A program made the position numbers and the translations under genes. A stretch of DNA of 40,850 nt from Synergistes sp. (GTDB lineage Bacteria > Synergistota > Synergistia > Synergistales > Synergistaceae). Position 1 is the stretch's first letter, and each line of letters opens with the position of its first letter. The notes under the pieces were generated by a model, which ran no database searches, was not told the origin of the DNA, and worked only from the letters and a program-made list of their open reading frames with translations. The stretch lies in assembly GCA_017537925.1 (NCBI GenBank), contig JAFYJW010000071.1:1-40850 (forward strand), read 5' to 3'. Below, piece after piece: positions 7,550 to 40,560 of this stretch.

Positions 7550-8176
7550 TCAGTGGTTTCTGACAATCTCTTTTATCACCATCAGGCGGGAGAGCGTCGA
7601 GCGTTCCATCTCTTCAAGCTTCATGGATATCGAGCGGATAGCTTCGCCGTACGAAGGTATCATGACGTGCTCGAGCGCATTGACGCGCCTGCGCGTGCGC
7701 TCTATCTCCAGCGCCATAGAGGAGACGGCTTTTTCCTCGGCCGCGAGCTTTACAAGGTCCGGCAGCAGCTTGAGGAATTTGTCAAGGGCCACGTCAAGGC
7801 TTCCGGGGGATGTGGCAAAGCCGTATGACAGCTCGGAGCTCTGCTCCGGGAAGTCATATTCCGGCACGCGCACGCTCATGACATTCCTGTAGCTTACGCC
7901 TACTTTCATGTCGCCGCCTGCGCTCATCAGCGTCTGCTCGAGCATCTGCGGGAGCGTCTGGGCACGCGCCATCAGGAAGCCTCCGTAGCATTCGCCGAGT
8001 TCGCTTTCGACTTCACGGCGCAGGTTGTACAGCTCCCTCGCCCGGACGAGGAATTCCTTGACGAGCGCATCCTGCTTGTCTTTAAGAAGCTTATGTCCCC
8101 TCTTCGCGACGACTAAAAGCCTTTTCAGCCGCGACAGCTCCATCCTGTTGGGGTTGACATTAAGCGCCTTTGCCAT
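7550..8176 (-). CDS. atpD: V-type ATP synthase subunit D (central stalk)
   Basis: Subunit D forms the rotating central shaft inside the A3B3 head. The 208-aa product begins with VNPNRMELSRLKRLLVVAKRGHKLLKDKQD, divided here between residues 6 and 36, which is the characteristic family N-terminus. It ends in a second long helix ending in IERTRRRVNALEHVMIP followed by a further helical tail. Such long antiparallel helices fit the shaft. It is the last gene of the operon, 16 bp after atpB, and is followed by the operon terminator. Confidence 0.97.
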   Translation of the reverse strand: MAKALNVNPNRMELSRLKRLLVVAKRGHKLLKDKQDALVKEFLVRARELYNLRREVESELGECYGGFLMARAQTLPQMLEQTLMSAGGDMKVGVSYRNVMSVRVPEYDFPEQSSELSYGFATSPGSLDVALDKFLKLLPDLVKLAAEEKAVSSMALEIERTRRRVNALEHVMIPSYGEAIRSISMKLEEMERSTLSRLMVIKEIVRNH

Positions 8177-8192
8177 TGGAGGTCACCACTCT

Positions 8193-9611
8193 CTAATTCT
8201 CGCTCTGACGCTCAAGATCTTCTTTTGCCGCCATGAGCGGTCTCAGATACTTTTCAATGTACTCGTCTCTGATACGCTTCAGTTCGCGGACAGGTGTTAT
8301 CGTGAGAAGCTCCCAGCCGAGCTGCAGGGTGTCTTCTATGCTGCGGTTCTCGTACTCTCCCTGGCGGACATAGCGGTTTTCAAATTCGTCCGAGAATTTC
8401 GCGAAAGCCTTATCTTCGTCTGAAAGCGCGCCTTCGCCAAGTATGACGGCGAGTTCCTTGGCTTCTTTTCCGCGCGAATAAGCGGCAAAGAGCTGGTTCA
8501 TAAGGTCTGCGTGATCTTCTCTCGTTTTGCCTTTGCCTATGCCTTTATCTTTGAGGCGGGAGAGCGACGGCATGACGTCGACAGGCGGATAGATGCCCCT
8601 GCGGTGCAGACCGCGGGCAAGCATTATCTGACCCTCTGTGATATATCCGGTAAGGTCGGGGATCGGGTGCGTCTTGTCGTCTTCGGGCATCGTAAGTATA
8701 GGTATCTGGGTGATCGAGCCCTTTCTGCCGCGAAGACGTCCCGCCCTCTCGTACATCGTCGCAAGGTCCGTATACAGGTAGCCGGGATAGCCGCGGCGCC
8801 CGGGGACTTCCTTACGTGCCGCAGATATCTCGCGGAGAGCCTCGCAGTAGTTGGTAAGGTCGGTGAGTATGACGAGCACGTGCATATCTTTTTCAAACGC
8901 AAGATATTCAGCTGCCGTCAGAGCAAGGCGCGGCGTTGAGATACGCTCTATCGCGGGGTCGTCCGCAAGGTTCACGTACATGACGGTGCGTTCGATGGCG
9001 CCCGTTTTACGGAAGTCTTCCATGAAGAACGAAGCTTCTTCAAATGTGATGCCCATCGCAGCGAATACGACGGCAAAGTCGGAATGTCCGCTTATAACAG
9101 TCGCCTGACGGGCTATCTGCGCGGCCATTTTATTGTGCGGCATACCGCTTCCGGAGAAGATAGGCAGTTTCTGCCCGCGGACAAGCGGGTTCATGCCGTC
9201 TATCGTAGATATACCGGTCTGGATGAATTCCGACGGGAAGTCGCGCGAATAGGGGTTCATCGGGTTGCCGTTCACGTCGAGCGTAGTCTCCGGTATTATA
9301 TCCGCGCCTCCGTCTATCGGAGCTCCGCGGCCGTTGAAGATGCGCCCCAGCATGCTCTTGGCAACGGGAAGACGCAGGACGTCGCCGAGGAAGCGCACTT
9401 CGGTGGAATCCACGTCTATGCCGCTGCTGCCTTCATAGACCTGAACAAGAGCACGGTCTTTGTCTATTTCGAGGACGCGTCCGCGGCGGTGTTCGCCGTT
9501 CGCGAGCGTGATCTCGGCAAGCTCGTCATAGCTTACTTCTTCGATCCTGTTAACGACCATAAGCGGGCCCGAAAGGTTGGTTATGGTCCTGTATTTCTCA
9601 GGCAACCTCAT
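8193..9611 (-). CDS. atpB: V-type ATP synthase subunit B (non-catalytic head subunit)
   Basis: Subunit B alternates with A in the soluble A3B3 head. Recognisable family blocks include the stretch with [11 protein letters not shown]-type wording (residues from [19 protein letters not shown]), then [21 protein letters not shown], here near residues 150-170, and [16 protein letters not shown]. It lacks a full Walker A GKT, as B subunits do. The longest frame would start at 9632, but GGGAGGTGA lies 6 nt before the ATG at 9609-9611, so I start there; this gives 472 aa beginning [10 protein letters not shown] and a 14-bp overlap with atpA. Confidence 0.97.
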
Positions 9612-24347: not shown

Positions 24348-24386
24348 CTTAGATCCTCCTGTCTGCCGCATAAGAACATCCTATTA

Positions 24387-24424
24387 TTCCATCGCGCCGC
24401 GTATGTCGTTTTTAAGCTGTTTCA
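24387..24424 (-). pseudogene. Relic of the 3' end of wyl (copy 3, degraded)
   Basis: On the minus strand this piece reads QLKNDIRGAME then stop, matching AEQLKNDIRGAAEKYGVL at the end of the intact WYL regulator (26325-27368). The core shared DNA is about 27-33 bp, including CGCGCCGCGTATGTCGTTTT. It lies just upstream of the nuclease-like gene and downstream of the 133-aa gene. Confidence 0.75.
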
Positions 24425-24511
24425 CATCAAAAGTAAACTTATTTACAGGAAATATCTGTGTTTACCAAGCCCGCATACGAGCTAACACCAAATTCATTGG
24501 TAATACCAAAC

Positions 24512-24913
24512 TCAATCACAAATGAAAAAACAAACCAAGACTGATACTTCAGCTAAAAACCAGCTGCCGCACATCCATCCGGACATAAAACAACCTAAAC
24601 CGGTTCTTTCTCCCCACCCATCACATCCAAAACAACCACCAAGACCTACTATACCACCAATATACATAAACCCGCCAACAAGGTATTCAACAACATCTTC
24701 CCGAGCTAAAAGCTTGTTGCCTATAACAATTAACGTTAAAACAACTGTAATGAATAAGCCTGTAAAAAACCCTTTTGAAAAGAGTCTCTCCTCATACTCA
24801 TTACGGGCTATCTCATATTCATATTCGGACAGATACTCTTCATCATCATGCCATGGTCTTTCTTTTGTTGAACGACGCATCATTTTTGGGAGGTCCGGCT
24901 CAAGTATACTCAT
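24512..24913 (-). CDS. Small three-helix membrane protein, cassette copy 1
   Basis: I do not recognise this 133-aa protein. Residues 1-45 are highly charged and tyrosine-rich (DDEEYLSEYEYEIARNEYEE). Three predicted membrane helices follow at roughly 47-66, 76-95 and 108-131. The last two are glycine- and cysteine-rich (GGCFGCDGWG, then GCFMSGWMCGSW). The ATG at 24913 has GGAGG 7 nt upstream. It shares only its first codons and general layout with the membrane protein at 25494-25889. Together with the 74-aa gene 78 bp upstream it forms one cassette. Function is unknown; a membrane-acting effector or its regulator would fit. Confidence 0.6.
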   Translation of the reverse strand: MSILEPDLPKMMRRSTKERPWHDDEEYLSEYEYEIARNEYEERLFSKGFFTGLFITVVLTLIVIGNKLLAREDVVEYLVGGFMYIGGIVGLGGCFGCDGWGERTGLGCFMSGWMCGSWFLAEVSVLVCFFICD

Positions 24914-24991
24914 CTAAAATCCTCCTTATCCGGATCACACAGGGACATACCGTCCTTACTAAAACACCCGCAGATGTCATGGCTTGCTCAT

Positions 24992-25216
24992 TCAATAACT
25001 CAAACCCGAAGCAATACCGTGCTTTATCTCAAAATCTGTAAAAGATACCAGCCATTTACCTTTCACCGATCTGAATAAATGATGATTTCCCTCTTTTCCG
25101 ATATACTCACAATGCGAATATCCCCAATTTCCAGTAATACCGTAAACTTTCCCCAACTCTATATTGACCATGTCATAAGCGTCATACCTGCCGTTTCTCA
25201 GACTCACATCTATCAT
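24992..25216 (-). CDS. 74-aa conserved small protein, cassette copy 1
   Basis: This unknown protein is 64/74 identical to the one at 26020-26244. The core VNIELGKVYGITG, EYIGKEG, HLFRSVKGKW and LVSFTDFEIKHGI alternates as in a small beta-barrel, SH3- or KOW-like fold. That fold is a guess. GGGGGAG lies just before the ATG. Retention of nearly identical copies beside divergent membrane proteins argues for real coding. Differences from the other copy are at residues 6, 13, 15, 22, 30, 35, 44, 45, 52 and 70. Confidence 0.7.
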   Translation of the reverse strand: MIDVSLRNGRYDAYDMVNIELGKVYGITGNWGYSHCEYIGKEGNHHLFRSVKGKWLVSFTDFEIKHGIASGLSY

Positions 25217-25305
25217 CTCCCCCTGCCTTAAAATACGATTTGATCCTTAACTTATAAAATGCATACATCTCTTGATATCGGTCATTACGACTTCCTTACA
25301 ATACC

Positions 25306-25352
25306 CCGTACTTTTCCGCCGCGCCGCGTATGTCGTTTTTAAGCTGCTCCGC
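25306..25352 (-). pseudogene. Relic of the 3' end of wyl (copy 2, well preserved)
   Basis: 47 bp match the last codons of the intact wyl gene with a single difference. On the minus strand they encode AEQLKNDIRGAAEKYGVL and the stop. Upstream in the same frame the similarity fades at about 25353. Between here and 25490 lies a further decayed stretch whose minus-strand reading AWYPQIFPVNRFTF recurs in altered form near 24430-24465, so it belongs to the duplicated unit. A 33-codon frame at 25389-25490 covers it but has no ribosome-binding site and is not called. Confidence 0.85.
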
Positions 25353-25493
25353 AGTTTCATCACAAGAAATAACCGTATTCTGAAGAGTTTAAGAGAAAGA
25401 AACATTCCTCTGATAATCTTTAAAAGTAAACCTGTTAACAGGGAAAATCTGAGGGTACCACGCTCTAAGTTTTACTAATAACAAATCCATAAC

Positions 25494-25889
25494 TTAACCA
25501 AAAAATATTCCAATAATTAAAAAAATAACCCCAAGAAACACAATTCCGCCAGCACACATCCCCTGAGCAAAAACAAAACAATCATAAAACAAAAACCCCA
25601 AAAAACTTACAAACATAGAAGATACTCCAGTTTCATAAATAAAGGATTCTATAGACGGATCACTTTCCCAAAATAGAGTTGCAAACCCTCCTAAAACTAA
25701 AGAAACTATCACGCTAAAAAGAACCCCTCTTAAACCCCATAAAGCTTCACGCTCTTCATAGGCTGCTTCAAGATCCTCATAAGACATATACTTGTCCTCA
25801 AAAGTTTCTTCGGGAGCAAGATCATAAGCGGGCTCGGTAACCTGCCCAGATTCCCGCTTCTTATATCTGCGTCTGCGCTTTCTGCTCAT
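25494..25889 (-). CDS. Small three-helix membrane protein, cassette copy 2
   Basis: Unknown 131-aa protein. A very basic start (SRKRRRRYKKRESG) is followed by an acidic stretch up to about residue 48 (EETFEDKYMSYEDLEAAYEE). Three predicted membrane helices lie at about 54-73, 86-106 and 110-130. The layout parallels the 133-aa protein of copy 1 but sequence identity is low. The ATG overlaps by 4 bp (ATGA) the stop of a 19-codon frame that keeps the original cassette start, so translation is probably coupled. Confidence 0.6.
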   Translation of the reverse strand: MSRKRRRRYKKRESGQVTEPAYDLAPEETFEDKYMSYEDLEAAYEEREALWGLRGVLFSVIVSLVLGGFATLFWESDPSIESFIYETGVSSMFVSFLGFLFYDCFVFAQGMCAGGIVFLGVIFLIIGIFFG

Positions 25890-25945
25890 CTTATTAAAGA
25901 ACGATGCCCTATTTTTGAAGGGTCATTCAGCGCAAGTATACTCAT
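25886..25945 (-). CDS. 19-aa upstream frame coupled to the copy-2 membrane gene
   Basis: The frame starts at the cassette's original ATG with AAGGAGG 7 nt upstream. It begins MSIL, as does the 133-aa protein of copy 1, and aligns with it for about 19 codons with one 3-nt indel, then stops at TGA. That TGA overlaps the ATG of the 131-aa gene. It is either a leader peptide or the broken N-terminus of the ancestral gene rescued by a new start. Confidence 0.5.
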   Translation of the reverse strand: MSILALNDPSKIGHRSLIR

Positions 25946-26019
25946 CTGAAATCCTCCTTATCTGTATTACGCCGGGATATACCGTCGCTGCGAAAACACA
26001 CCGGGATACACCGACTCAC

Positions 26020-26244
26020 TCAGTAACTCAAACCTTCAGCAATACCATGCTTTATCTCGAAATCTGTAAAAGATACCAGCCATTTACCTTCCACCGATCT
26101 AAATAAATGATACTTTCCTTCTTTTCCGATATACTCACATTTCGAATATCCCCAATCTCCGGTGATACCATAAACTTTCCTCAACTCTATATTGACCATA
26201 CCATAACCGTCATACCTGCCATTTCTCCGACTCACATCTATCAT
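26020..26244 (-). CDS. 74-aa conserved small protein, cassette copy 2
   Basis: Paralogue of the protein at 24992-25216, with the same length and 86% identity. Compared with copy 1 it is more basic at residues 6, 22, 35 and 44 and more acidic at 30, 52 and 70. A purine-rich GGGGGGAG precedes the ATG. It lies 80 bp downstream of the wyl stop, and 74 bp before the 19-aa frame. The function is not recognised; cotranscription with wyl and the membrane gene is likely. Confidence 0.7.
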   Translation of the reverse strand: MIDVSRRNGRYDGYGMVNIELRKVYGITGDWGYSKCEYIGKEGKYHLFRSVEGKWLVSFTDFEIKHGIAEGLSY

Positions 26245-26324
26245 CTCCCCCCTGCCTTAAAATACGATTTAATCCTCAATTTATAAACTGCATCTATCTC
26301 TTGATATCGGTCATAGCGACTTTC

Positions 26325-27368
26325 TTACAATACCCCATACTTTTCCGCCGCGCCGCGTATGTCGTTTTTAAGCTGCTCCGCGAGGCTGTCAGGGCTTAAT
26401 ATTCTGACGAAGCGAGCGTACTGCATGGCCCAGCAGCGCATCGCCTCCGGATTGACTGTCACGAAGGCCGTGATCTCGTCGTCAGACTCATTGGAAAAGC
26501 GAACGTTTTTGCCAAACCAGTCGATTATCTCGCTGATGATACATTTTTTCGCTCTGAAGGAGACCCTGGCGCATGATCCGGCATACATATAGATGTGCTC
26601 CGCCATGTGCTTCGGAAGGTCAAGGCCTTTTTTGAACTCCTGCAGCTCACGCATCGGCCGGGCCGGCGCGTCGAGCAATTCTATTCCTGTGATGCGGTCT
26701 ATGCGGTAATGTGCGGCGTTATCGTGCCCCTCGTAATTGCAGATAAGATAATAACGCCCGTTCGTCGCCGCCATCTGATAGGGATTTACGACATATTTAT
26801 GCGGTCTGCCGCTTTTATCGGCCCGCGGATGAAGTTTCCCGTCTATGCCGAAATCATTGTATATAAACCTGACCTTTCGCTTCTTTTCTATCGCCTCGTC
26901 GATGACCTCTATACTGCGGAAGAGCTCTTTGTTCTCCGGCATATCTTCCGGCAGACTGTGGATATGTTTCACTTTCGATTTAAAGTACTGATTGGAGAGG
27001 CACGTTATTCTTTCTATCAAAGATCTGCATTGCTTATACGGGATGTTTTTTGAGAAGAGCAGAGAGTCTATTATCATCCGCAGTTCCGCGTCCGAAAAAT
27101 CTCTTTTAAGATACCAGTCCGTGCAGATCGCTTCTTCCTCCCCTCTTTCGTTTACGCGGATGTTTTCTCTGAATTTGACGTCATATCCCAGGTCGATCAG
27201 ATTCATCAGGTTGCGCTTGACCGATTTTCTTTCAGCTTTTATTTCATAATCTTTTTCAAGTATCTCGACGATCTCTTTCTGGCTCAGACGATGCTCCGCG
27301 TCTGTGTAGTTTTTCAGGATGTCAAGAATATTTATTATCAGTGTTTTCTTTTGCGAACAAGCGTACAT
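26325..27368 (-). CDS. WYL-domain transcriptional regulator
   Basis: WYL proteins sense nucleic acids or nucleotides and often control defence genes. The 347-aa product has an N-terminal winged helix (residues about 8-68: EHRLSQKEIVEILEKDYEI, then RKSVKRNLMNLIDLGYDV). The WYL domain is at about 155-225 (VRFIYNDFG, then VVNPYQMAATNGRYYLICNY and AHYRIDRITGI). A WCX-like C-terminal domain ends at AEKYGVL. GGAGG touches the first ATG of the frame (27374) but lies 6 nt from the second, so I start at 27368. It follows the AAA ATPase gene by 88 bp. Confidence 0.92.
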   Translation of the reverse strand: MYACSQKKTLIINILDILKNYTDAEHRLSQKEIVEILEKDYEIKAERKSVKRNLMNLIDLGYDVKFRENIRVNERGEEEAICTDWYLKRDFSDAELRMIIDSLLFSKNIPYKQCRSLIERITCLSNQYFKSKVKHIHSLPEDMPENKELFRSIEVIDEAIEKKRKVRFIYNDFGIDGKLHPRADKSGRPHKYVVNPYQMAATNGRYYLICNYEGHDNAAHYRIDRITGIELLDAPARPMRELQEFKKGLDLPKHMAEHIYMYAGSCARVSFRAKKCIISEIIDWFGKNVRFSNESDDEITAFVTVNPEAMRCWAMQYARFVRILSPDSLAEQLKNDIRGAAEKYGVL

Positions 27369-32892: not shown

Positions 32893-35208
32893 ATGGATTT
32901 CAACAAGAAGGATTTGTCCGAAGCCGACATCCGCACAAAGTTCATTACCCCAGCTATCGTCAAAGCCGGCTGGAGTTCCTTTTCTCAAATGCGGGAGGAA
33001 TACCCCATCACAAAGGGACGCATTATTGCCCGTGGCAAAACATGCAGACGCGAGATGCCATTGAAGGCGGACTATGTCCTGTTCTACAAGCCCAATAAGC
33101 CCATCGCAATCGTTGAAGCGAAAGACAACAATCACACCGTTGGCGACGGCATGCAGCAGGCGTTGAATTATGCCAAGATGATGGACGTCCCGTTCGTGTT
33201 CTCATCCAACGGAGACGGTTTTGTCTTTCACAACAAATTCATTACCGAGGGCGATGTAGAGATCACACTGTCGCTGGATGAGTTCCCTTCGCCCGATACA
33301 CTGTGGCGGATGTATCACGAGCAGGCGCATGTCAGTCCTTCGCAGGATCAGATCATTGATGAGCCGTATTATTCTGACAATCCGGACAAGCAGCCGCGCT
33401 ATTACCAGATGAACGCCATTAACAAAACGGTGGAAGCGATTGCCAACGGTGAAAACCGTATTTTGCTCGTCATGGCAACTGGTACTGGCAAGACTTATAC
33501 CGCGTTTCAGATCATCTGGCGGCTGTGGAAAGCGGGCATAAAGAAGCGCATCCTGTTCCTTGCAGACCGCTCAGCGCTGATCTCGCAGACATTTACCAAC
33601 GATTTTGCACCGTTCAAGGATAAAATGACGTGGGTGACGAAGCAAAACTTTGATACTGCCCATGAAATTTACCTTGCCCTTTACCAAGGGTTGACCGGCG
33701 AAGACGATGATGCCAACAGCTTGTTCGAACAGTTCAGCCCCGGCTTTTTTGATCTCATTGTCGTGGACGAGTGCCACCGGGGCAGCGCGAAGGCGGACAA
33801 CCAATGGCGCGAGGTGCTGGAGTATTTTACATCCGCAACGCAGATCGGCCTGACAGCGACACCGAAAGAAACGAATACAGTTTCCAACATCGATTACTTC
33901 GGCGAACCGATTTATACCTATTCCCTCAAGCAGGGCATCGACGACGGTTTCCTTGCTCCCTATCGCGTGATTCGGGTGTTCTTTGATCGAGATATCGAGG
34001 GATTCGTCCCCTATGAAGGACAGCTCGACGACAACGGCGAAGTGATCGACAACCGCGTTTACAATACAACCGATTTTGATAAAAACCTTGTGCTCGAAAA
34101 ACGCACAAAGCTGGTGGCCAAAACCGTATCCGACTATCTGAAAAAGCATGACTGCCGGATGGACAAAGCCATCTTCTTTTGCGTGGATCAGGAGCACGCG
34201 GATCGGATGCGTCGGGCGCTGATCAATGAAAACGCAGATATGTGCGCAGTGGATGACCGCTACGTGATGCGGATCACGGCCAATGATGAAGAAGGCGTCA
34301 AGCAGCTCGACAATTTCCGCAATGTGGAGAGCCAGTATCCCGTGCTCGTTACGACATCAAAGCTGCTTTCCACCGGCGTAGACGTCCAGACGGTCAAATA
34401 CATCGTCCTGGACTCCAACATCCGCTCTATGACCGAATTCAAGCAGATCATCGGGCGTGGCACCCGTGTGCGCGAAGATCTGGGGAAGCTGTACTTCACG
34501 ATTTTCGATTTCCGCGATGTCACGCGACTGTTCCATGATCCCGACTTCGACGGGCCGATTGAGCAGCAGGATGATTACGAGCCGCATAAGCCCGGCCCCG
34601 GTCCGGAGGATCCGCCGAAGGTGTCGCCACAGGGTGGAGATAAGAAACCGAAATACGTTCTGGGCGATACGATGGTCACGGTGTCACAGAAGCATGTGCA
34701 GTATCTCGATAAGAACGGGAATCTGATCACTGAAAGCCTGATTGATTACACCAAGCGCAATGTCCGCAATCAGTATGCCTCTCTGGACGATTTCCTTTCC
34801 GCGTGGAACGATGCAGATCGGAAACAGGCAGTTTTAGACGAATTGGAGAAACGCGGTGTGTTCTTCGACGACCTTTGCGAAGAGACCGGAAAAGACCTTG
34901 ACCCGTTCGACATGATTCTGCACATCGTGTTTGACCAGCCCCCGCTGACGCGGAAAGAACGCGCAGAGCATGTCCGTAAGAGGAACTACTTTACCAAATA
35001 CGGCGAAAAGGCAGCAGAAATCCTCAATGAGCTACTGACGAAGTATGCCGACAGCGGACTGACCGATCTGGAAAACGTAGACGTGCTGAAGGTCGATCCC
35101 CTGAAAAAGTACGGCACCCAGGTTTATATCATCAATACCATCTTCGGCGGTATTGCAAAATACCGCAAGGCGATCAAAGAATTGGAGATGGCGATCTACG
35201 CTGCATAA
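32893..35208 (+). CDS. hsdR: Type I restriction enzyme subunit R
   Basis: HsdR is the motor and nuclease of the type I complex. The 771-aa protein has an N-terminal PD-(D/E)XK nuclease with D60 (LKADYVL) and E75-A-K77. The superfamily 2 helicase core follows with Walker A ATGTGKT (K200), the DECH box (D292-H295) and IIGRGTRVREDLGK (motif VI) near residue 520. The C-terminal EcoEI-type domain is from about 630. The length fits the compact EcoEI-like R class. GGGGAGG precedes the ATG. Confidence 0.96.
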   Translation: MDFNKKDLSEADIRTKFITPAIVKAGWSSFSQMREEYPITKGRIIARGKTCRREMPLKADYVLFYKPNKPIAIVEAKDNNHTVGDGMQQALNYAKMMDVPFVFSSNGDGFVFHNKFITEGDVEITLSLDEFPSPDTLWRMYHEQAHVSPSQDQIIDEPYYSDNPDKQPRYYQMNAINKTVEAIANGENRILLVMATGTGKTYTAFQIIWRLWKAGIKKRILFLADRSALISQTFTNDFAPFKDKMTWVTKQNFDTAHEIYLALYQGLTGEDDDANSLFEQFSPGFFDLIVVDECHRGSAKADNQWREVLEYFTSATQIGLTATPKETNTVSNIDYFGEPIYTYSLKQGIDDGFLAPYRVIRVFFDRDIEGFVPYEGQLDDNGEVIDNRVYNTTDFDKNLVLEKRTKLVAKTVSDYLKKHDCRMDKAIFFCVDQEHADRMRRALINENADMCAVDDRYVMRITANDEEGVKQLDNFRNVESQYPVLVTTSKLLSTGVDVQTVKYIVLDSNIRSMTEFKQIIGRGTRVREDLGKLYFTIFDFRDVTRLFHDPDFDGPIEQQDDYEPHKPGPGPEDPPKVSPQGGDKKPKYVLGDTMVTVSQKHVQYLDKNGNLITESLIDYTKRNVRNQYASLDDFLSAWNDADRKQAVLDELEKRGVFFDDLCEETGKDLDPFDMILHIVFDQPPLTRKERAEHVRKRNYFTKYGEKAAEILNELLTKYADSGLTDLENVDVLKVDPLKKYGTQVYIINTIFGGIAKYRKAIKELEMAIYAA

Positions 35209-35225: not shown

Positions 35226-35891
35226 ATGACAAGTCAAGAATTAGTAGATTCTTTTTGGACGCACTATATCATGCTCGAAAAAGAGTTCATGGCAACAACA
35301 GGATTCGTGAGAATCGACAACGACAATTTTTCTACTTACTCAGACGCTTATGCCAAATTGCTTCTTCATATAGGGAGCGAAGTAGATGTTGTCGCGAAAG
35401 AAACCTGTAAGCTAATCGATCCCGCATTTAGTGAAGAAACAATGGACAAATACCGTCTTACATTGTCCTCAGCTCCAGAGTTTATAAATGCGTCTGTCGA
35501 GCTAATAAACTATGGGGTCACGTTAAGTCCATGGAACGACGCAGAAACAGTATCTGCAGGAAATCCAGCACTCATTTGGTGGAAAGCATATAACAAAGTG
35601 AAGCACGAGAGAATGAGTGTGGTGACGATTGATGGCATCACAAAGGAAAGCTTTAAGTTTGCTAACCTTAAAAACACATTAACTGCGTTAGGTGCTCTTT
35701 ACCATCTTATTCTTCATGCTTATTACTTAGCGTTGAAGAAAGAAGGTAAAAATACGGAAGTTCCGCTACCTGGGTCTCGGCTATATAAAATGAATGGTCT
35801 TGTCTGGAATAATGTTGTTTTTCCTTTTGATACCTGTTTCTACATTGACAACGGATGTTTGATAATGAAAACATCTACGATCCCATATTAA
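35226..35891 (+). CDS. HEPN-like protein inserted between hsdR and hsdM
   Basis: Not firmly recognised. The 221-aa protein is helical. WWKAYNKVKHERM at 118-130 resembles the W-x2-YN-x-hK-H motif of several HEPN-like families linked to defence. The classical R-x4-6-H ribonuclease motif is not evident, so catalysis is unproven. The C-terminal third is beta-rich (from about residue 175). Its AT content is higher than that of both neighbours, and it stands where R-M operons often gain cargo. AGGAG precedes the ATG and the spacings (17 and 12 bp) show cotranscription. Confidence 0.5.
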   Translation: MTSQELVDSFWTHYIMLEKEFMATTGFVRIDNDNFSTYSDAYAKLLLHIGSEVDVVAKETCKLIDPAFSEETMDKYRLTLSSAPEFINASVELINYGVTLSPWNDAETVSAGNPALIWWKAYNKVKHERMSVVTIDGITKESFKFANLKNTLTALGALYHLILHAYYLALKKEGKNTEVPLPGSRLYKMNGLVWNNVVFPFDTCFYIDNGCLIMKTSTIPY

Positions 35892-35903: not shown

Positions 35904-37352
35904 ATGGCTATGTCCGCACTGATAAAATCGCTGGAAGACATCATGCGCAAGGATGCCGGTCTGAACGGCGACGCGCAGTATATTGAGCAGATCACGTGGT
36001 TACTGTTCCTGAAAGCCTTTGACGCAAAGGAAATGGAATGGGAGTTCCGCCCTGATTACCATGGCGTGATCCCGGAGGGGCTACGCTGGCGCGACTGGGC
36101 AGCGGATAAGGAAGGCATTACAGGTGACGCGCTTATCTCGTTTGTAGATATGCTTTTCTCCAAGCTCAAAAAGCTGGACACGTCTGATGGTGATATGCGC
36201 AAATACGTAGTGCGCAACGTGTTTGAAGACATTAACAACTACATGAAATCCGGTGTATATCTTCGCCAGCTCATTAACCGGATCAACGAAAAAGTTGATT
36301 TCATCGACGCAACGCAGAAGCACACTTTCAACGATCTGTATGAAGGCATGCTCAAAGACCTGCAAAGTGCCGGTCGCGCTGGGGAGTTTTATACCCCGCG
36401 CCCCGTCACAAACTTCATCGTAGAGAAGGTCGATCCGAAGCTCGGCGAAACCGTGCTCGATCCCGCCTGCGGTACGGGCGGTTTCCTTACCAGCACTATC
36501 GCGCACCTCGGCAGTGTGACGTCGATGGAGGAACTGGAAAAGCAGCAGACCACAATAAACGGGTGGGAAAAGAAGCCTCTGCCGTATCTGTTGGCTATGA
36601 CCAACCTCATTCTGCATGATATTGAAGTGCCGCGAATCCGACATCAGAATTCCCTCAACCGCCCGCTTTCCGACTATTCCGCCAAAGACCGCGTGGATGT
36701 GATCGTTACCAATCCACCCTTCGGTGGCGCGGAGGATGCGGCGATCAAGCAGAACTTCCCGTCGGACATGCAGACCAGCGAGACAGCGGATCTGTTCATG
36801 GCGCTGATTATGAATCTGCTGAAAGATCGTGGGCGCTGCGGCGTGGTACTGCCAGACGGATTTATGTTCGGCGACGGCGTGAAAGCGACGATCAAAGAAA
36901 AGCTGCTCAAAGAATACGGGCTGCACACGATTATCCGTCTGCCGCAGGTCTTCAAGCCTTACGCCAGCGTCAACACAAATCTGCTGTTCTTCCAGAAGGG
37001 TGTGACAAGTCGAGGCGTGTGGTTCTATCGGCTTGATTACCCGGAGGGTGTCAAAAGCTTTACCAAAACCAAGCCAATACAGGATAAACATTTTGATCCC
37101 GTGCGGGAATGGTGGGCGGATAAGCAGCCCGTCGTCGTGGACGGGTTTGATAAGGCACGCTTTTTTACTGTGGAAGAATTGCGCGATTTGAACTTTGATT
37201 TTGATAAGTGCTGCCCCTTCCCCCATGAGGAAGAGGAGATTCTCGAGCCTGGTGATTTGATCGCACGCTATCAAGCAGAACGTAGCGAACTGAACGCAAA
37301 TATTGACCGTATCCTGTCAACCATTACGGCAAAACTGGAGGGCAACGAATGA
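35904..37352 (+). CDS. hsdM: Type I modification methyltransferase subunit M
   Basis: HsdM makes N6-methyladenine at the sites recognised by HsdS and protects host DNA. The 482-aa protein has an N-terminal helical domain up to about residue 150. The AdoMet-binding loop is DPACGTGG (D186 to G193) and the catalytic motif IV is NPPF (N270-F273). The linker QSAGRAGEFYTPRPV is typical of the family. AAGGAG precedes the ATG by 8 nt. Its stop overlaps the hsdS start by 4 bp (ATGA). Confidence 0.97.
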   Translation: MAMSALIKSLEDIMRKDAGLNGDAQYIEQITWLLFLKAFDAKEMEWEFRPDYHGVIPEGLRWRDWAADKEGITGDALISFVDMLFSKLKKLDTSDGDMRKYVVRNVFEDINNYMKSGVYLRQLINRINEKVDFIDATQKHTFNDLYEGMLKDLQSAGRAGEFYTPRPVTNFIVEKVDPKLGETVLDPACGTGGFLTSTIAHLGSVTSMEELEKQQTTINGWEKKPLPYLLAMTNLILHDIEVPRIRHQNSLNRPLSDYSAKDRVDVIVTNPPFGGAEDAAIKQNFPSDMQTSETADLFMALIMNLLKDRGRCGVVLPDGFMFGDGVKATIKEKLLKEYGLHTIIRLPQVFKPYASVNTNLLFFQKGVTSRGVWFYRLDYPEGVKSFTKTKPIQDKHFDPVREWWADKQPVVVDGFDKARFFTVEELRDLNFDFDKCCPFPHEEEEILEPGDLIARYQAERSELNANIDRILSTITAKLEGNE

Positions 37353-38815
37353 CCGCTCAGGATTTAAAAAACGCCATACTTCAGCTTGCCGTTCAGGGAA
37401 AACTGGTGCCGCAAAATCCGAACGATGAACCAGCGTCGGAACTGCTGAAACGGATCAAAGCGGAAAAAGAACAGTTTACAAAAGAGGGCAAGATCAAAAA
37501 AGAAAAACCACTTTCTCCGATTACTGATGATGAAATACCTTTTGATATTCCTGAGAGTTGGGAGTGGGTTCGTGTTGCAGATATTTCTTCTATTACCGCA
37601 GGTGGGACACCTTCCAGAACTAATTCACTGTTTTGGAATGGGAGTATTCCATGGGTAAAAATAAGCGATATTTCATCGAAATATGTAACAGAAACAGAAG
37701 AAAGAATAACGGAAGCAGGATTGAACAGTTCTTCTGCCAAGATTTTTCCTAAAGGGACGCTACTATATACGATTTTTGCCACCATTGGAACTGTCGGAAT
37801 ACTAAGCATTGATGCGGCAACAAATCAAGCAATTGCAGGTATAACTTTTTTGGGCGAATACAATCTTGATTATCTGTATTATATTCTTATTGGTCTAAAA
37901 GACATTTTCGTTGCAAAAGGCAAGGGAATGGCGCAGATGAACATAAATCAAACGATACTCAAGAATACACCAATTCCACTTCCGCCGCTCGCCGAGCAGA
38001 AACGCATCGTTGCTAGGATCGAAGAGCTGATGCCGCTGGTGGAGGAATACGGCGAAGCGGAGGAAAGGCTGACCGAGCTGAATGCCACATTCCCGGACAA
38101 ACTCCGCAAATCCATTTTGCAACAGGCAATTCAGGGAAAACTCACCGAGCGCGATCCTGCCGACGAGCCCGCCTCAGAGCTTCTGAAACGCATCCGAACC
38201 GAAAAAGAGAGGCTTATCAAAGAAGGCAAGATCAGAAAAGAAAAAGCCCTACCACCTATCACGGAAGATGAGACGTCGTTTGAGATTCCGGATAATTGGA
38301 GCTGGGTTAGGTTAAGTGAAATATGTAATATTTCTGATGGAACACACCAAACACCGCATTACGTTGATCATGGTGTTCCATTTATCTCAGCCCAGAATAT
38401 AAAACCATATAGGTTTATCCCGGAAATACATCGAGATGTTTCTGAAAAGGATTATTTAGAGTACAATAAGGTTGTCGCGCCAGAAATGGGCGATATTCTA
38501 ATGACGCGAGTTGGTGCAGGCATTGGCGAAGCAGCTATCATAGATCAGGATTTCAAGTTTTCAATTTACGTTAGCTTAACTCTCATCAAGCGGTACGGAA
38601 ATGAACTCAATATGGAATACCTGTTGCATGTGCTGAATTCTCCGCAGGGAAGAAAGCTTGCTGAAAAGAAGACTCTTGGGAAAGGTGCCTCGCAGGGGAA
38701 TCTGAATCTTGTATTTATTAGAGAGTTCGTGCTTCCCGTTCCTCCACTCGCCGAGCAAAAGCGCATTGTTGACCGTGTAAACGAACTCCTCGCCGTTTGC
38801 GATGAATTGAAATGA
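37349..38815 (+). CDS. hsdS: Type I specificity subunit S
   Basis: The 488-aa HsdS has two target-recognition domains separated by two copies of a conserved helix. The first conserved block (residues about 1-62) and the second (about 245-318) share ILQ-A-QGKL, DEPASELLKRI and KEGKI-KEK. PLAEQKRIV occurs twice, ending each half. Both recognition domains (about 63-210 and 319-465) are AT-rich compared with the conserved blocks. The protein should read a bipartite site that cannot be predicted here. It overlaps the next gene by 4 bp. Confidence 0.96.
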   Translation: MTAQDLKNAILQLAVQGKLVPQNPNDEPASELLKRIKAEKEQFTKEGKIKKEKPLSPITDDEIPFDIPESWEWVRVADISSITAGGTPSRTNSLFWNGSIPWVKISDISSKYVTETEERITEAGLNSSSAKIFPKGTLLYTIFATIGTVGILSIDAATNQAIAGITFLGEYNLDYLYYILIGLKDIFVAKGKGMAQMNINQTILKNTPIPLPPLAEQKRIVARIEELMPLVEEYGEAEERLTELNATFPDKLRKSILQQAIQGKLTERDPADEPASELLKRIRTEKERLIKEGKIRKEKALPPITEDETSFEIPDNWSWVRLSEICNISDGTHQTPHYVDHGVPFISAQNIKPYRFIPEIHRDVSEKDYLEYNKVVAPEMGDILMTRVGAGIGEAAIIDQDFKFSIYVSLTLIKRYGNELNMEYLLHVLNSPQGRKLAEKKTLGKGASQGNLNLVFIREFVLPVPPLAEQKRIVDRVNELLAVCDELK

Positions 38816-39225
38816 GGCGCTCTATGGAATTGGGGTTTAGTGGGCTAAATCGCTCTTTTATAAATAGTGCATCCGCTTTGGCAGAGTTTAACCGCCATCA
38901 AGAGGAATCTCTGCGTGCTGTCGAGCAGGCAAATCAAGAGAGAATCGAGAGAGAAGAAAAAATGGTCGCTGGGGCAGAGGCGAGCATTGCGCAAAAAGAG
39001 CTTCTGGAACAACAAGTGGAGATAATCCAAAAGCAAAACGAGCTCCTGTCGGACAATTACTCAAAGCTAAAAGAAATGTATGATGCTCAAGTTGAAGCAA
39101 ATAAAGAAGCAAAAGAGGAATTGAAGCGGAGCAAGCGGTTTAACATCATTATGATGATAATTTCTATCATGGCAATGTTAGCTGCGGTTGCCGGCCCGAT
39201 TGTTACGATTTTAGTTAGTCGATAA
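38812..39225 (+). CDS. Coiled-coil protein with C-terminal membrane anchor
   Basis: Unknown 137-aa protein. Residues about 25-108 are charged heptad-like helix rich in glutamate and lysine (EEKMVAGAEASIAQKELLEQ and on). Residues about 110-134 form one membrane helix (FNIIMMIISIMAMLAAVAG). The soluble part is therefore probably cytoplasmic with a C-terminal anchor. The ATGA overlap with hsdS supports the start; a second ATG at 38824 is possible. It could tether or regulate the restriction complex or the peptidase, but this is speculation. Confidence 0.6.
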   Translation: MRRSMELGFSGLNRSFINSASALAEFNRHQEESLRAVEQANQERIEREEKMVAGAEASIAQKELLEQQVEIIQKQNELLSDNYSKLKEMYDAQVEANKEAKEELKRSKRFNIIMMIISIMAMLAAVAGPIVTILVSR

Positions 39226-39279
39226 TGGTTTTTTCCTGATGCGGCTAAGGTCATTGTCATCAAAAACTAACGAATTCAC

Positions 39280-39390
39280 TTGACTTCCACTATTAATCTC
39301 ATAGCACCGCTCCTGTCCATTGCCATGCAACTACACATCGTTGATCATGAAAACAAACTCTACGCCGAGTGCGATGAGCTAAAAAATTCA
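39280..39390 (+). pseudogene. Relic of a second hsdS 3' end
   Basis: The plus-strand reading HIVDHENKLYAECDELK aligns with RIVDRVNELLAVCDELK, the last residues of the intact hsdS at 38815, and the preceding APLLSIAMQ sits where PPLAEQK should be. The relic lies just before the peptidase start, in the same reading frame. It indicates that an hsdS copy once ended here and that the region between the two hsdS ends (coiled-coil gene) was inserted or duplicated. Confidence 0.75.
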
Positions 39391-39402
39391 AGGAGATTGC
39401 TA

Positions 39403-40083
39403 ATGAAAAAGAATGATATGTTTAAACACATTGTAGCAATAAGGACTGCTAAAAACAACAATGTGATCGGAGGAACGGGATTCTTCGTTAAAACAGAAGA
39501 TAAAAAGATCTTCTTGGTAACAGCAAATCATGTGGCAAGAGATACAACCATTAATACTGATATTTGGGTGAGAAATATGGCGACAGGGCTCCCGTTCGCA
39601 TTTAAGATTAATCAGCTAAACAAAATGGTGATGTGGCTGTATCACCCAATTGCCGATATTGCAATATTAGAGGTCGAGCCAAACGAAAAACTCGACTTAT
39701 CGCTATATGTTCTGTCGATCTCGTTATTTGAGAAAAGCTTTACGACTGTCCCAGAGCGAGAATCTATCGTTACTATGTATGGCATGCCTGATATCTATAC
39801 AGATTTAGAGTTTGCCCCATTCACATGTGATAGTTATCCCGCTTCAAATCTTTGGGTATCTTACTTTGATGTTACAGGTAGTCAATATAAATGCTTTATG
39901 TTGGACAAGCCCTCAACTCAAGGATTCAGCGGTGGACCAGTTATCAGTTTTGCAAAGGCTGACGCGCCAATATGCTATGGCATTATTCATGGTACTCGAC
40001 AGGACAATACCGGAGGGAAACTTGCTATTGTCGTACATAGCGCATATCTCTTTGAGTTGATTGAGTATGCAAAGAACACCTGA
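39403..40083 (+). CDS. Trypsin-like serine peptidase
   Basis: The 226-aa protein has the complete chymotrypsin-fold triad: H43 in VTANHVARD, D85 in HPIADIAIL and S176 in GFSGGPV, with an IGGTGFFV strand before it. No signal peptide is visible, so it should work in the cytoplasm. AAGGAG lies 7 nt before the ATG at 39403, which fixes the start; the open frame continues upstream through the hsdS relic to a TTG at 39280, without a ribosome-binding site. Trypsin-like peptidases accompany several defence systems. It is the last gene of the hsd locus that I can call intact. Confidence 0.85.
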   Translation: MKKNDMFKHIVAIRTAKNNNVIGGTGFFVKTEDKKIFLVTANHVARDTTINTDIWVRNMATGLPFAFKINQLNKMVMWLYHPIADIAILEVEPNEKLDLSLYVLSISLFEKSFTTVPERESIVTMYGMPDIYTDLEFAPFTCDSYPASNLWVSYFDVTGSQYKCFMLDKPSTQGFSGGPVISFAKADAPICYGIIHGTRQDNTGGKLAIVVHSAYLFELIEYAKNT

Positions 40084-40180: not shown

Positions 40181-40446
40181 GTGAGCAACTATTTTGTTTT
40201 CACAGATGAAGCTGGTGCATACCAACGCCACCCTAGTGATGCTCATATCAAAAGCCATCCGTTTTACATACGTTCGAACGTTATAATGTCAATCGATGAT
40301 TATCGCCAGTATCAGATCGACATGCAGCGCATCAGCGGTGAATATGAAATCCCCTTTGATGAGGAAATCAAATGGTCGGATCTGTGGAGCAAAACGAAAG
40401 GCAACCCGCGAAATGATTTGATTGCACGGATGCCGTTGAATCGCCT
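40181..40446 (+). pseudogene. Truncated DUF3800-like gene
   Basis: From a GTG at 40181 with GAGGTG upstream, the frame reads NYFVFTDEAGAYQRHP, SHPFYIRSNV and EEIKWSDLW. These look like DUF3800, a probable RNase H-fold family with a conserved N-terminal aspartate (here in TDEAG). The family is usually 200 aa or more, but similarity stops after about 89 codons, where IS-like sequence begins at about 40447. The frame then runs to a stop at 40489 inside that sequence. Confidence 0.5.
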
Positions 40447-40560
40447 TGAATATTCCGGGGTGGCAGAGCCACCCAATCCGGTGAAATAGAGCCACCGATT
40501 CCGTTGTGTAGAGCCAGTGCTCCGACCTCGGGAGCCACCCGTATTTTGCAGGGTGGCTCC
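40447..40560. mobile_element. IS21-like terminus with repeated GAGCCAC motifs
   Basis: Beginning TGAATATTCCGG, this region has GAGCCAC-type motifs at 40466, 40489, 40511 (imperfect) and 40532, spaced 21-23 bp. A perfect 10-bp inverted repeat GGAGCCACCC / GGGTGGCTCC lies at 40531-40540 and 40551-40560. Multiple short terminal repeats starting with TG are typical of IS21-family ends. No istA or istB is present, so only an end remains. The family assignment is from memory of such ends, not from a search. Confidence 0.5.

Follow-up and report, generated by a model that had tools for sequence, protein, structure and literature searches.

Displaced hsdS 3' ends as a recurrent scar of gene exchange in type I restriction-modification loci

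The 3' end of hsdS, the gene for the DNA-specificity subunit of type I restriction-modification (RM) systems, carries a genuine scar of gene exchange, and one that recurs between loci. Defence genes cluster, and their addition beside RM genes is seldom visible. In the DNA analysed here (the window; 40,850 nt, one whole contig of 77 from a Synergistes sp. genome of 1.98 Mb), the hsdS end occurs a second time downstream of the intact gene, in decayed form (the relic), between a small coiled-coil/transmembrane (TM) gene and a gene for a trypsin-like peptidase. The same order, namely an intact anchor gene, new cargo, a 3' fragment of the anchor and old cargo, all in one direction, was found in the window and in two further loci, L052 and L040, and relatives in which the anchor gene directly precedes the old cargo were identified for the window (L006) and for L052 (L053). 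We consider it probable, with some reserve, that an exchange slot for defence-type genes lies behind the hsdS stop, into which a new hsdS end is inserted with its cargo while the old end and its cargo are displaced downstream.

The type I RM operon stands at the end of the window and reads, on the plus strand, hsdR, a 221-aa gene, hsdM, hsdS, the coiled-coil/TM gene, the peptidase gene and a truncated DUF3800-like gene. hsdR (32893-35208) encodes an R subunit of the EcoEI/EcoAI type (Pfam ResIII, EcoEI_R_C and HSDR_N), hsdM (35904-37352) matched N6_Mtase and HsdM_N, and hsdS (37349-38815) is intact, with two specificity domains matched by Methylase_S in two stretches. All three subunits gave Pfam matches above cut-off in the R-M-S order of EcoAI/EcoEI-type systems, and annotated plasmid relatives of the operon carry EcoAI/FtnUII family names. 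The window holds one hsdS only, and the rest of the genome gave two weak matches, on another contig. The 3' end of the gene (38750-38815) is the C-terminal conserved segment, which finishes in IVDRVNELLAVCDELK before the stop, giving the C-terminus ELLAVCDELK, and is 90-93% identical at the nucleotide level to the ends in L006, L052 and L053. With the window's hsdR as reference, HsdR was 93-94% identical in amino acids to that of the same three loci (94% for L006), and HsdM was 94% identical in L006 and 96% in L052 and L053. The 221-aa gene (35226-35891), which is without known domain, was 86% identical in L006 and 62% in L052 (3361-4032) and was not found in the L053 locus; with flanking genes at 93-96%, the gap between hsdR and hsdM is a second variable position of the operon. 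The truncated DUF3800-like gene (40181-40489) is 89% identical over 90 aa to a gene in L053 and is broken off after RNDLIARMPLNRL; a short sequence with repeated GGTGGC/GCCACC motifs, possibly a transposon end, ends it near the contig end (40181-40850).

The initial annotation had noticed a second hsdS end downstream of the coiled-coil gene, and this was borne out. The relic (39306-39387, plus strand), which ends in IVDHENKLYAECDELK and has lost its stop codon, is a diverged copy, in direct orientation, of the last ~78 nt of hsdS (39306-39384/87), and is 71% identical to the intact end over 63 nt without gaps. Its gapped local nucleotide score was 29, where 5000 dinucleotide shuffles reached 14 at most, and its protein score was 66, where 5000 shuffles reached 50 at most; the next-best match to the hsdS end elsewhere in the window scored 14. 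The relic is derived from hsdS. The span first proposed, 39280-39390, was correct as to the existence of the relic and wrong as to its start, since hsdS similarity begins near 39306 and 39280 is merely where the first TTG falls in an open frame continuing into the peptidase gene. Within the relic the 'PPLAEQ' part is frame-shifted, and the changes fall evenly on the three codon positions (5/7/6), whereas four functional hsdS ends showed zero changes at position 2 (e.g. 1/0/5) and almost all of their variation at third positions. The relic is thus decayed sequence and not a functional end. Of the window ORFs of at least 150 aa that lie outside the repeat array at 1-1092, hsdS and wyl alone have their 3' end repeated further downstream. 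That array is made up of sixteen direct repeats, has a period of exactly 66 nt and is probably a CRISPR array.

A relic-free relative of the locus was recovered by searching with the peptidase, taking one genome per species. Two loci were obtained, L006 and L007, and in the latter the peptidase (70% identical) is remote from any hsd genes. In L006, from an uncultured Ruminococcus, the 92% identical peptidase gene begins 20 nt behind the hsdS stop, and neither the coiled-coil gene nor a relic was found in the hsd locus. As the initial annotation would have it, therefore, an hsd locus exists in which the peptidase follows hsdS directly, without the coiled-coil gene. The window's relic, spacer and peptidase gene align collinearly with the hsdS end, spacer and peptidase gene of L006, and the relic is, given this arrangement, best read as the remnant of an hsdS end that formerly preceded the peptidase. 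In the window an intact hsdS end and the coiled-coil gene now precede this old, peptidase-linked end. The segment between the new cargo and the relic (39226-39305, plus strand), which holds the right junction of the insertion, has no counterpart in L006. Divergence at fourfold sites between the window and L006 was 0.44 for hsdM and 0.61 for the peptidase, so that the 29% divergence of the relic requires no unusual rate. The hsdS genes of the window and L006 have their constant regions in common and differ in both target recognition domains (TRDs). The hsdS genes of L006 (4571-5980) and L052 (5490-6911) have near-identical first recognition domains and different second ones, which is, to judge from the alignment, TRD exchange between these loci.

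The same scar with other cargo was seen in L052, which was found together with L053 among 147 relatives of the L006 genome. In the relic-free L053, hsdS is followed after 7 nt by a gene whose 425-aa product has a TIR domain of the CAP12/Pycsar type (PF10137, E=1e-36), and the DUF3800-like gene related to the window's remnant lies behind it. L052 reads hsdS, a 314-aa DUF4145-like gene, a second hsdS end (7922-7986) and a truncated gene that corresponds to the N-terminal part of the TIR gene directly following hsdS in L053. Over its last 27 nt and across the boundary with the TIR gene, the L052 relic matches L053 without a difference (an unbroken 56 nt in the alignment), while the intact hsdS end of L052 has a 3' junction of its own, unlike that of L053. 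This points to an old end that remained with the resident gene and a different one that arrived with the new gene. The relic itself appears chimeric, with a perfect 3' part and a divergent 5' part of weak hsdS likeness (p 0.004-0.16 for protein, 0.016-0.58 for nucleotides). The displaced TIR gene (7995-8633) retains 212 of 425 aa and has lost its TIR domain, and displaced cargo may therefore decay as well.

The third scar came from 14 further hsdS loci scanned in genomes of L006's class, of which one, L040, had a relic. Here the hsd family is a different one, and a 208-aa gene whose match to HEPN is marginal leads into a relic of 79 nt (score 31, against 15 for the null), behind which a gene for a 606-aa AAA ATPase follows. 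Altogether a relic was present in the window, L052 and L040, that is in three of the 30 hsdS loci of a small and non-random survey, and in none of 12 plasmid hsdS loci; most cargo, it follows from its absence in the other 27, comes or persists without a scar. The candidate in L054, from the plasmid survey, scored 18 against 15 and lay 3.5 kb away, and was set aside as noise. A search of viral contigs for the hsdS end pattern, hsdM and the peptidase returned nothing.

The wider claim of the initial annotation, that cargo is gained recurrently at gene 3' ends, gained from these scars in other genomes and from the wyl array of the window (24382-26382, minus strand). Three wyl 3' ends, identical over 27 nt (CAGCTTAAAAACGACATACGCGGCGCG), flank two units of ~1 kb, each made of a common left part of ~430 nt and one ORF. 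The two ORFs, of 131 and 133 aa, are unrelated to each other, and both encode membrane segments. Since the units share the ~430 nt flank, tandem duplication was involved, and the array looks, from its sequence, as if a unit had been duplicated in tandem and one gene replaced. The parallel drawn with hsdS thus held for the presence of wyl ends around unrelated genes for small membrane proteins and found no support as to the identity of the process.

The new cargo of the window (38824-39225, plus strand) encodes a 133-aa coiled-coil protein with a C-terminal TM segment, counted from the ATG at 38824. GAGG at 38814-38817 lies over the hsdS stop, and an alternative start, ATG at 38812, overlaps it. 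The gene was not found in L006, L052 or L053, and in 183 genomes of the window's order, searched for both the coiled-coil gene and the peptidase, the window itself was the sole match, the other 182 being without; nor was the insert found in phages, plasmids or viral contigs. A search of 391 genomes of L006's class and of 217 relatives of the L030 genome yielded one credible remote relative, L030, with 41% identity over 70 residues that take in the last part of the coil together with the TM segment; the matches in L031, L032 and L033 resemble coiled-coil noise. In L030 (2876-8004) a 114-aa coiled-coil/TM gene sits between the mod and res genes of a Type III RM locus, overlapping the mod stop by ATGA and abutting res. 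This suggests that membrane-anchored coiled-coil proteins linked to RM systems form a small family, and makes the window's protein a candidate RM-linked defence gene. A role as an RM-linked accessory, possibly a guard or a membrane effector by analogy with PrrC, is put forward very tentatively.

The resident cargo (39403-40083, plus strand) is the trypsin-like peptidase, recognised by domain match and with His43/Asp85/Ser176 conserved; an AAGGAG ribosome-binding site (39390-39395) lies 7 nt before its ATG. The peptidase matched PADLOC LmuA with E=2e-15 over residues 1-210, and an LmuA-like N-terminal effector domain is present, with the match spanning just positions 2-186 of the 425 in the model. 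No gene of LmuB (SMC) size was found next to it, and with this neighbour and the C-terminal part of LmuA both absent the peptidase was not filed as Lamassu. No solved structure matched it by sequence. The genes found directly behind hsdS encode coiled-coil/TM, peptidase, TIR, DUF4145-like and HEPN-like proteins, and on plasmids DUF262 pairs, a nuclease and a DUF6414/ATPase pair. With matches to TIR (PF10137 and PADLOC PDC-S35), to HEPN and to the LmuA-like peptidase, the slot cargo would be classed by domain resemblance as defence-type genes. In three of the four close loci the hsdS stop region reads AAATGAGG and provides a Shine-Dalgarno-like GAGG for the next gene, from which cargo there is probably translated in step with HsdS.

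The exchange-slot reading draws on only four close loci, whose HsdR and HsdM are 93-96% identical and whose genes immediately behind hsdS differ. By analogy with polymorphic toxin loci, homology-facilitated illegitimate recombination would be the most likely mechanism. A donor segment consisting of the 3' part of hsdS and a downstream gene would recombine with the resident hsdS through homology, its other side being joined inside the resident hsdS 3' end or a short way upstream of it. hsdS would be rebuilt with the donor's end; the resident end, now noncoding, would be pushed downstream with its cargo and decay, and the new cargo would be read from the hsdS mRNA via the Shine-Dalgarno and stop region of hsdS. 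A relic-free donor locus with hsdS and the coiled-coil gene was not found, and we therefore infer the direction and the breakpoints, the fine position of which has been lost with the 29% divergence of the relic. The suggestion that the hsdS ends serve as a dedicated shared recombination site found no support, as neither the three slots nor the window between 31.6 and 40.8 kb held a recognisable recombinase, and no conserved site was found beyond the hsdS coding sequence.

Excision and reintegration, in which the hsdS 3' end serves as a repeat, small circles of hsdS end and cargo enter by one crossover and the relic is the second repeat, would have the support of circular intermediates formed via direct repeats, as demonstrated at the pneumococcal tvr locus (PMC6265443). 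The 29 nt that the two ends of L052 share with one mismatch, and the chimeric look of its relic, favour it weakly, as does the fact that all three relics begin close to where the C-terminal conserved segment starts. Where a relic starts is hard to judge, however, because the TRD upstream is hypervariable and relics could reach further into it unrecognised. The repeats of the window and L040, at ~70% identity, could hardly recombine now, and a recombinase gene was recognised in none of the three slots, so that we hold this route to be rather unlikely.

Less likely still, and distinctly improbable, is that each relic is the last remnant of a complete second hsdS, a tandem or silent copy deleted down to its 3' end. 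Genuine second hsdS genes do occur behind hsdS, being present in two surveyed loci, L044 and L058 (the latter on a plasmid), and are reported, in the part of the source available, to be numerous in REBASE (PMC7394358). The relics, however, lack TRD sequence, an inverted copy and a recombinase, and three deletions stopping at one short segment are not expected. In two independent pairs, moreover, the gene adjoining the relic is precisely the one behind the single hsdS of a relic-free relative, and L006 and L053 approach single-hsdS relatives with matching relic-free order on both sides.

Islands insert at tRNA or gene ends, and the duplication of a gene end is the footprint expected of an integrase-driven insertion at the hsdS 3' end in which the end of the gene was restored and the integrase later lost. 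A direct repeat is indeed present, but in the window it is 29% diverged; the inserts are of ~0.5-1 kb with one gene each and hold no recognisable integrase ORF, and no plasmid or phage record contained the insert. This origin is also less likely than the exchange slot, and very improbable. Chance similarity or an assembly artefact, for which only the shortness of the sequence speaks, is refuted by scores far above those of shuffles, by the recurrence of the pattern in three genomes and by the divergence of the copies, which are not an assembly duplicate.

A bolder extension of the exchange slot, which we think improbable, would make the hsdS 3' end a general docking address: small cassettes of an hsdS end and a gene would circulate between distantly related gut bacteria, insert behind hsdS by recombination through its end, be expressed through coupling with that gene, and accumulate or vanish like integron cassettes. 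Type I RM loci would, if this were true, be self-extending defence arrays.

Scars of this kind are known from polymorphic toxin loci, and no report of one behind hsdS was found in a literature search that had most subscription papers outside its scope. In the type VI secretion effector-immunity modules of Vibrio cholerae the 3' end of the effector gene is displaced, and homology-facilitated illegitimate recombination with a conserved upstream region as anchor has been proposed (PMC5361080). As in those modules, the new unit here stands behind a conserved upstream region, and the old 3' end and its partner gene are pushed downstream; in contrast to their effector and immunity genes, the anchor here is a DNA-specificity subunit and the cargo unrelated defence-type genes. 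The orphan modules of CDI and Rhs systems are downstream 3' fragments of the main gene, each with its own partner gene (PMC3150448), and some keep stretches homologous to the main gene, as here. Those orphans, however, retain functional toxin domains, whereas here a constant region of ~80 nt is decaying. Orphan modules carry cognate immunity genes, while HsdS has no toxin tip and the cargo consists of peptidase, TIR, HEPN/DUF4145 and coiled-coil proteins. With prrC, an accessory defence gene embedded in the EcoprrI type IC operon (PMC3874165, PMC12707154), the slot shares, as far as the available parts of these sources describe it, the carriage of an accessory defence gene in a type I RM operon; the same parts mention no duplicated hsdS end, and the slot differs in holding several alternative genes in one place. 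At the tvr (SpnIV) locus of pneumococcus, as may be the case here, direct repeats mediate the movement of DNA within a type I RM locus (PMC6265443). Unlike the slot, where the cargo changes and no recombinase was recognised, tvr shuffles TRDs inside a single locus with a dedicated recombinase, and the window, with one hsdS and a relic without recognisable TRD, is not of the phase-variable multi-hsdS (ivr/tvr) kind. Duplicated hsdS ends offer a simple sequence footprint for counting, dating and ordering the gains of cargo behind hsdS across any collection of genomes. They also predict which of the genes nearby are RM accessories that can replace one another.
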